The notes under the pieces are model-generated. The model ran no database searches, was not told the DNA's origin, and saw only the letters and a list, made by a program, of their open reading frames with translations. Positions 10,816 through 14,317 of a stretch of 52,736 bases of DNA are shown here, piece by piece (positions within the stretch are counted from its first letter, which is position 1; every line of letters begins with the position of its first letter). A program made the translations under genes and the position numbers. Source of the DNA: Candidatus Tayloriibacteriota bacterium (lineage in GTDB: Bacteria; Patescibacteriota; Minisyncoccia; Phycocordibacterales; PALSA-1337); contig JAQBRD010000028.1 in the NCBI GenBank assembly GCA_028286665.1, forward strand, positions 1-52,736. The letters run 5' to 3'.

Positions 10816-11310
10816 ATGGCCGGATCACTCGCGTACAACAAGAAAGTATCCTTCGATTACGAGATCCTCGAGAAATACGAGGCCGGAATCGAGCTTGTTG
10901 GCATTGAAGTGAAATCCATCCGCCACAATCATGCCGTACTGCTTGGCGCGCATATTTCAATCCGCGGCGGAGAGGCTTTCCTCATCAATGCGGATATCGC
11001 TCCATATCAGCCGAATAACACGCCGAAAGACTACGATTCCAAGCGCACCCGCAAGCTTATCCTCAACAAGAAGCAGATCGCCGAATTGGCAGCGCTTGAG
11101 GCCAAAAAAGGTTTGACAATCGTCCCTATTTCGATGTATAATAGTAGGAGTCGAATAGCTGCTGAAACCAAGAAAGGCAAAGCTTCCCGCGGCGGCAAGA
11201 TCAAAGTAGAGATCGCAGTCGTGCGCGGAAAGAAGCAGTTCGACAAGCGCCAATCGATCAAGAAGCGCGATACCGAGCGCGAGATTCGGAGAGAATTCAG
11301 CGACCGGTAG
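10816..11310 (+). CDS. smpB: SsrA-binding protein SmpB
   Basis: A 164-residue protein that binds tmRNA and brings it to stalled ribosomes. Family features: LAYNKKVSFDYEILEKYEAGIELVGIEVKSIR at the N terminus, the GGEAFLINADIAPY strand segment, and KRTRKLILNKKQI. The basic tail ends in KKRDTEREIRREFSDR, which enters the empty mRNA channel. The tmRNA gene ssrA starts 36 nt downstream, the usual arrangement. A strong promoter for ssrA is located inside this gene. Confidence 0.96.
   Translation: MAGSLAYNKKVSFDYEILEKYEAGIELVGIEVKSIRHNHAVLLGAHISIRGGEAFLINADIAPYQPNNTPKDYDSKRTRKLILNKKQIAELAALEAKKGLTIVPISMYNSRSRIAAETKKGKASRGGKIKVEIAVVRGKKQFDKRQSIKKRDTEREIRREFSDR
11113..11142 (+). promoter_or_regulatory. 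Consensus promoter inside smpB, probably for ssrA
   Basis: A perfect TTGACA (11113-11118), an 18-nt spacer and a perfect TATAAT (11137-11142). It lies in smpB coding sequence about 200 nt before the mature 5' end of tmRNA, so it would make an ssrA precursor needing 5' processing (RNase P in known systems). Confidence 0.65.
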
Positions 11311-11346: not shown

Positions 11347-11774
11347 GGGGATGCCAGGCATCGACAGTCGATTCCCTCCCTTTCGTGCAATGGAGAGCTC
11401 CGCTAACTCTTAAATCTGGCGGAAATGTCAATTGCAAAATCAGCAATTACTAAGGTAGCTTCAGCCGTATCTCCGTATTTCGGAACAGCTGACTTTACTT
11501 TCGCGTTCGCTCGAGCGTAAGCTCCTTAGCCGACACGACGTTCATCCATAGATCTTCTGCGCTATGGAATGAGTGATATATAGCAGAATCGGAAATGCGC
11601 CTGTCTCGACGCACGACCTAGATGACGAGGCTCGCATGCATGCATTTTGTTTTCTTTAGATCATGCATCGTCAAACGTCCAGTGCCGCAAGGTGCCGGAC
11701 AATAAAGACAACTATCCATTGTAGAAACGACTGGGAAAATCTTCTGCACGGCGGTTCAATTCCGCCCATCTCCA
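11347..11774 (+). ncRNA. ssrA: Transfer-messenger RNA (tmRNA)
   Basis: Rescues ribosomes stalled on broken mRNAs, with SmpB encoded just upstream. The 5' end GGGGATG pairs with CATCTCC at the 3' end, followed by the discriminator A; the T arm is GGCGG-TTCAATT-CCGCC. The 5' part has the typical GCCAGGCATCGACAG. CCA is not encoded. The most plausible tag frame starts with GCA at 11434 and ends at TAA 11518-11520: 28 codons, beginning AKSAITK and ending TFAFARA. The resume codon is inferred, not proven. The 3' end is repeated at 13278-13298. Confidence 0.92.
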
Positions 11775-11777
11775 CAA
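11757..11777 (+). repeat. Direct repeat copy 1: 3' end of ssrA (attL-like)
   Basis: A 21-base sequence, beginning CAATTCCGCC and ending CTCCACAA, covers the T-arm 3' strand and acceptor of tmRNA. It is identical to 13278-13298. Both copies are followed within 3-4 nt by a TTGACA promoter, and similarity continues for about 60 bases. Confidence 0.8.
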
Positions 11778-11780
11778 TCA

Positions 11781-11809
11781 TTGACATATACACTGTTTTA
11801 TGACAGTAT
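11781..11809 (+). promoter_or_regulatory. Promoter of the 11869-12339 gene
   Basis: TTGACA (11781-11786), 17-nt spacer, CAGTAT (11804-11809). It starts 6 nt after the tmRNA 3' end. Confidence 0.55.
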
Positions 11810-11868
11810 TTTTTTAAACATGAGCACGCTGGTTGCAATACCAGTATCACAATCAAACCCAGGACCAT

Positions 11869-12339
11869 ATGGAACTCACGGAAGACGATTTAAAAATCGC
11901 CCCCGAACTTCGGGACCTCAACGTGTCGAAAACCATCGCAAGCATCCTAAACAACTTCTACCTTCGTTTTCCAAGCGTGAAAATGAAAAGATGGGATGGC
12001 GAGACCCACAAAGGAGGAGCCAGTTACAATCGCAAGATGACGAAAGACCTCGGCTGGCTTGACCTGCCCCACAACCATAAAGGCGGGTGGGAAACCGAAG
12101 GAAACGGTTTCGTATACAGCGTCAAGAAAGGACAGCAGACGCCTCGGCAGTTCTACAGAGAACTTGATCGTGCGGTCCGAGAAGCGGGGTTCACGTCAAA
12201 GCAGATGTCAGTTGCTGTGACGGAGTGGTATTGCCTTAAGCATACCCCAGAAACCATTGAGAAATTCGGACCGATCATTCTTGCTGTGTATATCAAGTTA
12301 CGCAAAAAAGGTTACACCTACAGAGATCTCACTGGTTAA
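11869..12339 (+). CDS. Unrecognised 156-residue protein in the ssrA-flanked unit
   Basis: A soluble, charged protein starting MELTEDDLKIAPELRD. It includes KMKRWDGETHKGGASYNRK and a Trp/His-rich stretch (LGWLDLPHNHKGGW), then a helical C-terminal half ending in YIKLRKKGYTYRDLTG. No known domain is recognised. The ATG at 11869 follows AGGA; an upstream in-frame ATG at 11833 is also possible. It has its own promoter and terminator, so it is a single-gene unit. Codon choice is more mixed than in the flanking core genes, compatible with transfer. Confidence 0.65.
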   Translation: MELTEDDLKIAPELRDLNVSKTIASILNNFYLRFPSVKMKRWDGETHKGGASYNRKMTKDLGWLDLPHNHKGGWETEGNGFVYSVKKGQQTPRQFYRELDRAVREAGFTSKQMSVAVTEWYCLKHTPETIEKFGPIILAVYIKLRKKGYTYRDLTG

Positions 12340-12370
12340 CAAGTTTCTCTTCTTGAATAAAAAGAGCACG

Positions 12371-12400
12371 GCCCCTCAACGAATGTTGGAGGGGTTTCGT
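12371..12400 (+). terminator. Terminator of the 11869-12339 gene
   Basis: CCCCTCAAC and GTTGGAGGGG form a stem with one bulge and a GAAT loop, followed by TTTCGT. Confidence 0.7.
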
Positions 12401-12477
12401 ATTATCAAATATACTCAGGTGAGACCTGCACTGTTCGGTATAATTCAATGTAAGTATAGTTTTATATAAAGAATAAA

Positions 12478-12505
12478 GACGCATACCCGAAGGCATGCGT
12501 CTTTG
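12478..12505. terminator. Terminator downstream of the 99-residue gene
   Basis: A hairpin GACGCAT.CC / GG.ATGCGTC with a CCGAAGG-type loop and a T run on both strands. It serves the minus-strand gene and may also act on plus-strand read-through. Confidence 0.75.
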
Positions 12506-12520
12506 TTTGAAAGTTTGATC

Positions 12521-12820
12521 CTACTGACTTAGTTCAAGGTATTTTTCAAGATCCTTGATCATTTGTTTCGGATCAAAACAACCATTCCAACGATGTACCC
12601 ACAGTGGACGGTGAACCAACTTCATACCTTCATCGTAGTGCATGTCGGTAAGGTATTGCTCCCCCGCATCGTTGCGGAAGTCCACCACCGATAGACCTAA
12701 ATGCTCAATGAGCATTGTGATCATCAGAGGGATACCTTCCGCACCAGATCCGCACATGACGCAGGTTGTCCTGGCTCCACTGTAGTGATTTTTCAGATAA
12801 GTAACGAGTTTCTGTTTCAT
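12521..12820 (-). CDS. Small unrecognised protein with a CxxC motif
   Basis: A 99-residue protein starting MKQKLVTYLKNH. TTCVMCGSG (about residues 18-26) has two cysteines spaced as in metal-binding or redox sites; the rest is mixed helix/strand, with VVDFRNDAGEQYLTDMHYDEG in the middle and a helical end. No family is recognised. It has a near-perfect promoter and a leader of about 105 nt containing an ACAACTGCCAGCGGTTGT inverted repeat, which could be regulatory. It lies in antisense orientation inside the ssrA-flanked unit. Confidence 0.65.
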   Translation of the reverse strand: MKQKLVTYLKNHYSGARTTCVMCGSGAEGIPLMITMLIEHLGLSVVDFRNDAGEQYLTDMHYDEGMKLVHRPLWVHRWNGCFDPKQMIKDLEKYLELSQ

Positions 12821-12933
12821 AGTGTGTTTTGTTGAGTTTAGTCAAAGGTCACAATCCGCCTAACAACTGCCAGCGGTTGTATGTCCTTATTTCCAAACTC
12901 AACTCACACCTTATCTTGGAACTGACTCTATTT

Positions 12934-12962
12934 AGTATAGCATATTATATGCCATATGTCAA
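12934..12962 (-). promoter_or_regulatory. Strong promoter of the 99-residue gene
   Basis: Minus strand: TTGACA (12957-12962), 17-nt spacer, TATACT (12934-12939). It is followed by a leader of about 105 nt before the ATG at 12820. Confidence 0.75.
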
Positions 12963-13022
12963 TATCATTAATAGCCAAGGCGACTACCGCATATTAACGT
13001 TCTTTTAATGGTTCTATTAGTA

Positions 13023-13160
13023 TCATGTGGCACTCTGCCCTACTATTCTTTGGGCAAAATCGACCATACCGTATTCCTGAATAAGCTGGTGCGACCGAAG
13101 AATATAGGTTTCCATCTGGTTCCATAACTCTTCAGGGGTGTCCACAAAATGAAAAAGCAT
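13023..13160 (-). CDS. Doubtful small gene or gene fragment
   Basis: A 45-residue reading frame, MLFHFVDTPEELWNQ to RIVGQSAT, with protein-like composition. Its ATG lies in the arm of a terminator hairpin, directly after GAGAAGG. The frame stays open upstream through the ssrA-repeat region, giving an unlikely low-complexity extension. It may be the remnant of a larger gene or chance. Confidence 0.22.
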   Translation of the reverse strand: MLFHFVDTPEELWNQMETYILRSHQLIQEYGMVDFAQRIVGQSAT

Positions 13161-13185
13161 CCTTCTCGGATGCTTTTTCTTTTTC
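13151..13185 (+). terminator. Terminator-like hairpin before the ssrA repeat copy 2
   Basis: GAAAAAGCATCC-TTCTC-GGATGCTTTTTC followed by TTTTT. There is no clear plus-strand gene directly upstream, so it may terminate read-through or be part of the structured end of the unit. Confidence 0.6.
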
Positions 13186-13191
13186 CTGCTG

Positions 13192-13298
13192 GAGCTACCC
13201 GCGGAATTGAAAGCCGGACTGAGCGAAGGCGAAGGAGGCGGGGTCGAGAGACGCTTCAACAGAAGCGGACTCGTGACCAATTCCGCCCATCTCCACAA
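13192..13298. other. Fold-rich segment ending in the second ssrA 3'-end copy
   Basis: GGAG...GCGGAATTG (13192-13210) is complementary to CAATTCCGC..CTCC (13278-13295). Inside lies a nested hairpin, CGCTTC-AACA-GAAGCG, extended by GAG/CTC and GGTC/GACC. The whole 107-nt segment can close into one branched structure whose 3' strand is the tmRNA acceptor sequence. It lacks the T arm and D arm of a tRNA, so it is not a functional tRNA or tmRNA. It may be a recombination end or a small RNA. Confidence 0.4.
13278..13298 (+). repeat. Direct repeat copy 2: 3' end of ssrA (attR-like)
   Basis: Identical over 21 bases to 11757-11777, but the upstream T-arm strand and the rest of tmRNA are absent, so this copy is a remnant or attachment site only. 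Confidence 0.8.
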
Positions 13299-13300
13299 AA

Positions 13301-13329
13301 TTGACATAATCACTATTTTGTTATAGTGT
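13301..13329 (+). promoter_or_regulatory. Promoter of the 13414-13833 gene
   Basis: TTGACA (13301-13306), 17-nt spacer, TAGTGT (13324-13329). It is similar base for base to the promoter at 11781-11809, as is the following CACGCTGGTTGC. Confidence 0.6.
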
Positions 13330-13413
13330 ATTTTTAGCTTGATCACGCTGGTTGCTCCAGCATAAAACAAAAACGGCCATAGTGAGCCACAACCCGAAAG
13401 GAAAAATCACGAA

Positions 13414-13833
13414 ATGATAACTAAGACTAGTTGGAAAATCGGACCAGAAATGAAAAGGCTCTGGAGGGAAAATCGAGGTAAAAACTATTCTCCTGATAGA
13501 CGTAATGACGCCCTCGCAACCGCCACAATGGTTCCATCAATGATGGTGATACTCGGCACATCGGCCAAAGAAACTGCCGAACAGTGGTTTGGATCATCGC
13601 CGGTTATGCCTTTCTTGAACAAGAAACTTAATCTATGCGTAACACTCCAGGAATGTCTGACTGATGTTGCACAACGAATGAGTACCATTGTTGACTGGGT
13701 CGGAAATATGATTGGCGTTACTATCTATTTATATAATTCTGCGAATACTGAGTTATGCATCATTCAAGTCTTGATCGACCCACTGATTGGCGCTATCAAA
13801 GGAATCGAGCAATTACCATTTAGCCGCAAGTAA
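13414..13833 (+). CDS. Unrecognised 139-residue protein
   Basis: Starts MITKTSWKIGPEMKRLW. The first 35 residues are basic and the remainder is mildly hydrophobic with scattered cysteines (LNLCVTLQECLTD, TELCIIQVLIDPLIGAIKG). The hydrophobic stretches could be peripheral or membrane helices. No domain is recognised. It is a single-gene unit with promoter, an AAAGGA site about 13 nt upstream of the ATG, and its own terminator. Its promoter region is a divergent copy of the one at 11781, so the two genes may descend from duplicated cassettes although the proteins do not obviously align. Confidence 0.6.
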   Translation: MITKTSWKIGPEMKRLWRENRGKNYSPDRRNDALATATMVPSMMVILGTSAKETAEQWFGSSPVMPFLNKKLNLCVTLQECLTDVAQRMSTIVDWVGNMIGVTIYLYNSANTELCIIQVLIDPLIGAIKGIEQLPFSRK

Positions 13834-13895: not shown

Positions 13896-13923
13896 ATCGA
13901 ACTCCATTCCATTCTATTCAAAA

Positions 13924-13952
13924 TTGACATATATATAATTATAATGCATAAT
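13924..13952 (+). promoter_or_regulatory. Promoter of the 13991-14317 gene
   Basis: TTGACA (13924-13929), 17-nt spacer, CATAAT (13947-13952). Confidence 0.65.
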
Positions 13953-13990
13953 GTTTATATAACTGTTCATTGATCAGGCAAGTCAAGTCT

Positions 13991-14317
13991 ATGAAGAAGT
14001 CCGTAATCGATTTGCTCGAAATCCGAGCAGATTGCGTATTTCAAATAGACTGGACTTACACAATCACAAATACCCAATTCTGGATAGCAATCGCCTGTAT
14101 TATATTCTTCTGGCTAAAAGTTAAATTCTTCCGGTGGCCGATCATATTCCCCGCCATTCTCTGGTGCGTGCTGCACAAGAGAGAGACTCCGAAAGCTTTC
14201 GCTATCGCATTCGCAGCCTTCATCGCCTGCATGGTTCTTTCAAAGATTACCGGAAATATCCGAGAGGAAAACAAACGACACAGAGTCATGGAGAGTTTCA
14301 AATCGCGACGACCCTGA
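13991..14317 (+). CDS. Small membrane protein, unrecognised
   Basis: A 108-residue protein starting MKKSVIDLLEIRADC. It has two or three hydrophobic helices (FWIAIACIIFFWLKV, IIFPAILWCVL, FAIAFAAFIACMVLS) and a basic, arginine-rich C-terminal tail (REENKRHRVMESFKSRRP) that is probably cytoplasmic. No family is recognised. It is a single-gene unit with a strong promoter and terminator. Confidence 0.6.
   Translation: MKKSVIDLLEIRADCVFQIDWTYTITNTQFWIAIACIIFFWLKVKFFRWPIIFPAILWCVLHKRETPKAFAIAFAAFIACMVLSKITGNIREENKRHRVMESFKSRRP

Follow-up and report, generated by a model that had tools for sequence, protein, structure and literature searches.

A structured element and a candidate cassette behind the tmRNA gene of a Patescibacteria genome

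What does a second copy of the 3' end of a tmRNA gene, lying 1521 bp downstream of the first, say about how DNA enters a very small genome? Patescibacteria have such genomes, and few mobile elements have been described in them. The window considered here, that is, the whole stretch of 52,736 nucleotides that was analysed, comes from a Candidatus Tayloriibacteriota bacterium and contains ssrA, which starts 37 bases past the end of smpB. A preliminary description held that the acceptor and T-arm end of ssrA is duplicated and that the two copies bound a single 1.5-kb unit without a recombinase, which could be a satellite that borrows an integrase or the trace of tandem integration. The tmRNA gene at 11347-11777 is detected with Rfam and missed by ARAGORN, as is also the case in several relatives. 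The features of the locus are the following.

10816-11310, + strand: smpB (PF01668, E 1e-43)
11347-11777, + strand: ssrA, the tmRNA gene (RF00023, 87.9 bits, E 8e-33)
11757-11777, + strand: DR1, repeat copy 1, from the tmRNA T-loop (C56) to the 3' end (exact repeat search)
11771-11777, + strand: left copy of the 7-bp junction TCCACAA, the last seven tmRNA bases (sister-genus alignment)
11778-13140, unstranded: cassette 1, the insert separating ssrA from the terminator and element (empty-site alignment and GC)
11780-11862, + strand: left end of cassette 1, with a TTGACA promoter-like site, a dyad and the CACGCTGGTTGC hairpin (homologous to 13300-13380)
11869-12339, + strand: orphan gene 1, about 157 aa (ORF; no Pfam, PHROG or PADLOC family)
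12521-12820, - strand: orphan gene 2, 99 aa (ORF only)
13141-13147, + strand: right copy of the junction TCCACAA, a relic of the ssrA 3' end before the terminator (sister-genus alignment)
13148-13185, + strand: palindromic terminator hairpin of the ssrA-linked element (repeat search, sister alignment)
13186-13199, + strand: linker CTGCTGGAGCTACC, common to the ssrA loci of sister genera (sister alignment)
13200-13209, + strand: L'', inverted copy of the tmRNA T-arm, pairing with 13278-13285 as stem S1 (structure alignment)
13210-13277, + strand: conserved core with stems S2 and S3 and the motifs GGA/GAG and GGGGTCG ... GTGAC (model R1, 94.9 bits; core-only model R2, 72.1 bits; covariation)
13278-13298, + strand: DR2, repeat copy 2 of the tmRNA 3' end and far end of the element (exact repeat search)
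13299-13385, + strand: left end of cassette 2, related to that of cassette 1 (Smith-Waterman 72 against 36)
13414-13833, + strand: orphan gene of cassette 2, 139 aa (ORF list, Pfam and PHROG searches)
13994-14317, + strand: small gene, about 107 aa, with a TTGACA promoter-like site at 13923 (ORF list, alignment)

The recurrence of the ssrA end is real and far beyond chance. DR1 and DR2 are identical at 21 of 21 nucleotides, and the sequence occurs at these two sites only in the 933-kb assembly when up to three mismatches are allowed (the reversed pattern, as a control, gave 0). Homology continues for about 85 bp past both copies, with a Smith-Waterman score of 72 against a best background score of 36 in 3594 comparisons; this bears out the promoter and CACGCTGGTTGC block that had been seen to align, and the 12-mer CACGCTGGTTGC itself is found genome-wide only at these two places. 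The ORF list and a Pfam search likewise agree that no recombinase is encoded between the copies, and ssrA is an integration hotspot here, as had been proposed.

The idea of a single unit has to be amended. Removal of 11778-13147 from the window yields the layout of sister genera column by column, linker included, and the insert-free layout of G005, G015 and G024 equals the window without the insert; these empty sites were taken from sister genera, not from genomes of the same genus. Because removal of the insert restores the sister layout and TCCACAA stands at both edges, the 1.5-kb unit is composite by these alignments, consisting of an insert of about 1.37 kb and an older element of about 150 bp. 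The insert is thus real, and 13148-13298, previously taken for its right end, forms a structured and conserved element of its own, which touches ssrA directly in the sister genera. The 21-bp repeat is accordingly not a product of the 1.5-kb unit, since its far copy belongs to the element that stands behind ssrA in cargo-free relatives. From the idea of a satellite or a tandem integration there survive a recombinase-less insert and left ends common to two tandem segments, not the origin of the repeat. Nor is the layout fixed in all relatives, as the ssrA downstream regions of G005, G015, G024 and others lack the insert. The element of about 150 bp that carries the second copy is the more interesting object of the two.

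Cassette 1 has a GC content of 0.439, compared with 0.515 for the whole window, and its right side shows only the 7 bp, without a full 21-bp copy. A TCCACAG relic precedes the second copies of terminator and element in G005 and G053. Composition and alignment together indicate that the cassette is in all probability foreign and entered precisely at the ssrA 3' terminus, parting the gene from the element. Weak relatives of orphan gene 1 are present in two of 297 genomes of the order, and its predicted structure (pLDDT 56) is unusable; orphan gene 2 gave no Pfam or PADLOC family and a marginal PHROG match only. A match to STnc370 at 12439-12509 (E 0.6) was below threshold and is taken as chance.

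For cassette 2, the left end is seen and the right end was not found; a search of the same genome gave no cassette left end beyond these two places. The promoter-like block occurs a third time, in weaker form (68%), at 13923-13959, in front of the gene at 13994-14317. Another genome, G018 (locus L131), carries a 774-bp insert after ssrA with one gene and a 20-bp ssrA repeat at its bounds; this insert holds neither the structured element nor an integrase. The G018 gene looks NYN-like by eye, and a pair that resembles HicB/HicA, also by eye, stands directly behind ssrA in G016 (L129). Two further places in the genome of the window deserve mention. On contig C28 (33964-34940; L208, L291), a tRNA-Gln gene is followed by an insert of about 780 bp with an ORF of P-loop type (by eye), a core and an exact 19-nt repeat, a composite like that at ssrA without the inverted arm. 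On contig C13 (5173-6065; L273, L298), two tRNA-Phe genes about 820 bp apart have a common 24-base 3' end and a small ORF between them, possibly another cassette, one that brought a whole tRNA copy.

The element itself (13148-13298) is built, in order, of a terminator hairpin, an inverted T-arm copy, a 68-nt core and a direct copy of the tmRNA 3' end. Genes for tmRNA were located in 60 relatives and the downstream regions of 52 were examined; in about ten of the 52, a site 130-180 bp downstream repeats 14 to 22 bases from the 3' end of that species' tmRNA, and these repeated ends sit inside the same block of terminator, inverted T-arm (often with the acceptor end as well), two-hairpin core and direct copy. 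A covariance model, R1, was built from 13 tmRNA-linked blocks, and a second, R2, contains the core only and no tRNA-derived sequence. Both find the same nine copies in the genome of the window. R1 detects the element in 44 of the 60 relatives, 16 being without it, and across the phylum 47 of 380 Patescibacteria genomes have it at E below 1e-6. Two genomes titled Desulfurobacteriaceae and Thermovibrio, reached via smpB matches, contain no copy.

Position is as characteristic as structure. Fifty of 71 copies lie at most 100 nt behind a tRNA or tmRNA gene on the same strand, a position reached by 1% of points drawn at random in those loci, and in more distant Patescibacteria 25 of 32 copies are so placed. 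Most isotypes are represented, the distance to the tRNA gene is about 50 bp and the orientation relative to the tRNA is always the same. The far end of the copies repeats the 3' end of the adjoining tRNA from C56 on, with identity over up to 19-24 bases; the arms agree with the adjoining tRNA, not with each other. In the genome of the window, eight of the nine copies follow a tRNA or ssrA, and about a third of its tRNAs have a copy. The copies displaced by cargo (tmRNA, 21/21; Gln, 19/22) are the only ones there with an exact far repeat; in the six that lie directly behind tRNAs the far repeat has decayed.

Rfam 15, introns and ribozymes included, gave nothing credible on the element at gathering or permissive thresholds; phage and plasmid collections gave no match, and no description was found in the open-access literature. 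A 14-mer scan of IMG/VR yielded one true element among 80 loci examined. Two tandem elements with the tRNA end CAAATCCCTCCC occur at L322 (IMGVR_UViG_3300033463_005745). Other cores are found in a similar frame of inverted and direct tRNA ends: the type AAGGTTGAGC...GAAACCTGTACTG downstream of ssrA in G035, G034, G049 and G057 and at the tRNA-Leu of the window's genome (L295), and the type CAGGAAAGGGGTCGGG... downstream of ssrA in G008, G017 and G042.

On the tRNA-sense strand, the core stems of 78 distinct copies contain 114 G-U against 1 A-C combination. The covariation score is 0.56, compared with 0.18 after shuffling and at most 0.10 when slid, in an alignment (A2) that was fitted to the model, which inflates the pairing counts. 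This asymmetry, together with the covariation, means that the core is maintained as a fold of one strand, the tRNA-sense strand, as RNA or single-stranded DNA. The tRNA-derived stem, in the same 78 copies, has 19 G-U against 15 A-C and thus no wobble bias.

Relationships among the cores point to movement. The nearest neighbour of a core is in the same genome in 15 of 71 cases (on average 3.6 and at most 13 after shuffling); in 8 of 71 it belongs to the same tRNA type (mean 6.7, p 0.37). In G004, the tmRNA and tRNA-Gly cores (67 nt) are 100% identical and their stems match the respective genes; core pairs within G000, G003, G005, G027 and G042 are 80-91% alike. Tandem cores occur in G022 and G038, and in G051 cores lie within other cores and within incomplete tRNA copies that adjoin intact genes. 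Near-identical cores with different arms in one genome show that the core moves over evolutionary time and that the arms are local. The sequence is multicopy, has no ORF, and copies from one genome resemble each other more closely than those at corresponding sites in other genomes, which is the mark of a non-autonomous structured mobile repeat.

The partial tRNA copies that hold cores in G051 (L463, L454, L469), and also in G007 (L481), are 5' halves that break off at the D-stem or T-loop. Those of G051 stand just upstream of an intact tRNA gene, and the inserts begin with GTGAG and end with GTGAC. A splicing intron in tRNA genes was considered for the G051 cores and rejected, the interrupted sequences being partial copies beside intact genes whose excision gave no convincing tRNA. 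The same genome has four near-identical longer repeats (L464, L466, L467, L468), each with a core and a fourth hairpin and no tRNA nearby.

Selection on a tRNA-sense fold with conserved unpaired bases, a constant orientation and arms that match the adjoining tRNA could also be expected of a host non-coding RNA for tRNA or tmRNA biogenesis, for example one that helps to process or sense 3' ends; its stem would pair with the 3' end of the neighbouring tRNA, and the repeat would be a functional complement. This is unlikely, however, given that the element is patchy, serving about a third of the genome's own tRNAs and missing in 16 of 60 relatives, that the cores group by genome and not by tRNA, that tandem, nested and out-of-place copies exist, that the terminator usually stands between tRNA and core, and that the tRNA-derived stem lacks a wobble bias.

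No integrase or reverse transcriptase that matches the element was found. The genome of the window has one tyrosine recombinase in the PF00589 search, which is Xer-like and on a contig other than that of the ssrA locus; by eye, its neighbours are rpsO and a gene of exonuclease III type. A borrowed integrase, as suggested in the preliminary description, is conceivable, yet this single gene is the genome's whole complement of such recombinases. Most carriers have one Xer-like recombinase per genome, and none was detected in G018 and G053, where elements are present. Reverse transcriptases were found neither in the window's genome nor in several other carriers. Counts of neither enzyme track the copy number of the element, which speaks against a dedicated tyrosine recombinase or reverse transcriptase.

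These searches bear on a further reading, in which the element is a folded site like attC, the tRNA 3' ends correspond to attI, and the inserts are cassettes moved by a tyrosine recombinase. The order of tRNA, cassette, structured site and cassette suits it, as do a variable structure enclosed by inverted R''-L'' and direct L'-R' boxes, the tandem units and the strand-specific folding. There is, however, no integron integrase, PF00589 hits being Xer-like only and absent from some carriers; the GTTRRRY/RYYYAAC boxes are missing from the consensus of 13 elements; and the structured site flanks cargo on one side only and is mostly cargo-free. An integron-like system is thus rather improbable. A segmental duplication that copied the ssrA 3' region long ago and then diverged, without any mobility, would account for the roughly 105 bp that are homologous when counted from the repeat starts, but the repeat is exact and the 85 bp next to it agree at only about 70%, a like pattern occurs at many tRNA genes, and the sister genera hold the copy inside the element without intervening genes, which largely refutes this view and makes it very improbable. 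Least credible of all is an origin of the arms by tRNA-primed or tRNA-templated reverse transcription: the copied stretch, T-loop through 3' end, is what a cDNA of tRNA would cover, and the inverted copy looks like the primer-binding site of a retrovirus, but several carriers, the window's genome among them, lack a reverse transcriptase, no copy with a non-encoded CCA was seen, and reverse transcription of mature tRNA is out because copies that end in the genomic CCACAA instead of CCACCA, sometimes with the gene's downstream flank, come from the gene.

The preferred account is one of a mobile structured element and of cassettes that use its surroundings. The ssrA 3' end and its copy may act as attachment sites, at which recombinase-less cassettes (cassette 1, the related cassette after 13299 and the 774-bp cassette of G018) would integrate by site-specific recombination with an overlap of about 7 bp, the enzyme being provided in trans by Xer or by a visiting element. 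The element would be mobile but not autonomous, with a core that is recognised or acts in the folded form of its tRNA-sense strand, be it RNA or single-stranded DNA, and by supplying a spare tRNA end it could allow further insertions that need not damage the gene. Cores would most likely spread between tRNA genes through switching in the T-loop sequence TTCGANTCC, common to all tRNAs, after which hairpin-templated repair may fit the arms to the tRNA now adjoining, a final step that is the least certain one. Switching followed by hairpin-templated correction is proposed as the least forced account of the arms. As a whole, the combination of a structured element behind ssrA, a foreign cassette at the ssrA terminus, cassettes mobilised in trans and a mobile core with arm correction is considered somewhat probable. 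More tentatively, and a little short of that, the family may represent a class of mobile structured sequences across Patescibacteria that lodges behind tRNA and tmRNA genes (in some genomes, inside partial copies of them), with a stem rebuilt from the target and one core for all, and with integrase-less cassettes landing at the duplicated tRNA end.

The repeat family marks where and how DNA enters Patescibacteria genomes, namely at tRNA and tmRNA genes. Its target-matched arms raise a testable question, that is, what rewrites the inverted and direct copies of the tRNA end and leaves the 68-nt core fixed, and the core model enables cassette arrays and tmRNA/tRNA hotspots to be found in thousands of uncultured genomes.

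Several known systems invite comparison. Integron cassettes with attC are small promoter/ORF cassettes adjoining a folded site of inverted and direct boxes with a strand-specific structure, and here, too, such cassettes adjoin a site folded on one strand; unlike in integrons, there are no IntI and no attC boxes, and the arms copy the neighbouring tRNA gene and differ per locus. The element shares with MITEs and REP-type repeats that it is short, multicopy, non-coding, folded and non-autonomous, and differs from them in being fixed 3' of tRNA genes, in taking its arms from the target and in having a core selected as a one-strand fold; to our knowledge, it has no cognate transposase. In streamlined genomes, tycheposons likewise bring cargo to tRNA genes, but they carry recombinases and span many kb.

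The closest parallel is offered by the ssrA islands of Dehalococcoides, which occur in tandem and have a 20-bp repeat of the ssrA 3' end at their bounds; 16 of them have an integration module, whereas the 15 without one are believed to be mobilised in trans, and the serine recombinase DsiB is encoded by many (PMC3146451). These islands are much larger than the units of 0.15-1.4 kb seen here without an integrase, and a structured element with an inverted tmRNA copy, as found here, is not described for them in the excerpted text. The unit in the window also differs from the islands with an integration module in containing no recombinase. Like the islands, it is bounded by ssrA and an exact 21-bp repeat of its 3' end, and its cargo is absent from the site in relatives (G005, G015, G024 and others). 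The preliminary reading as an integrase-less satellite or a tandem integration is partly supported, in that the inserts look like cassettes mobilised in trans, of the kind known from some of the Dehalococcoides islands.
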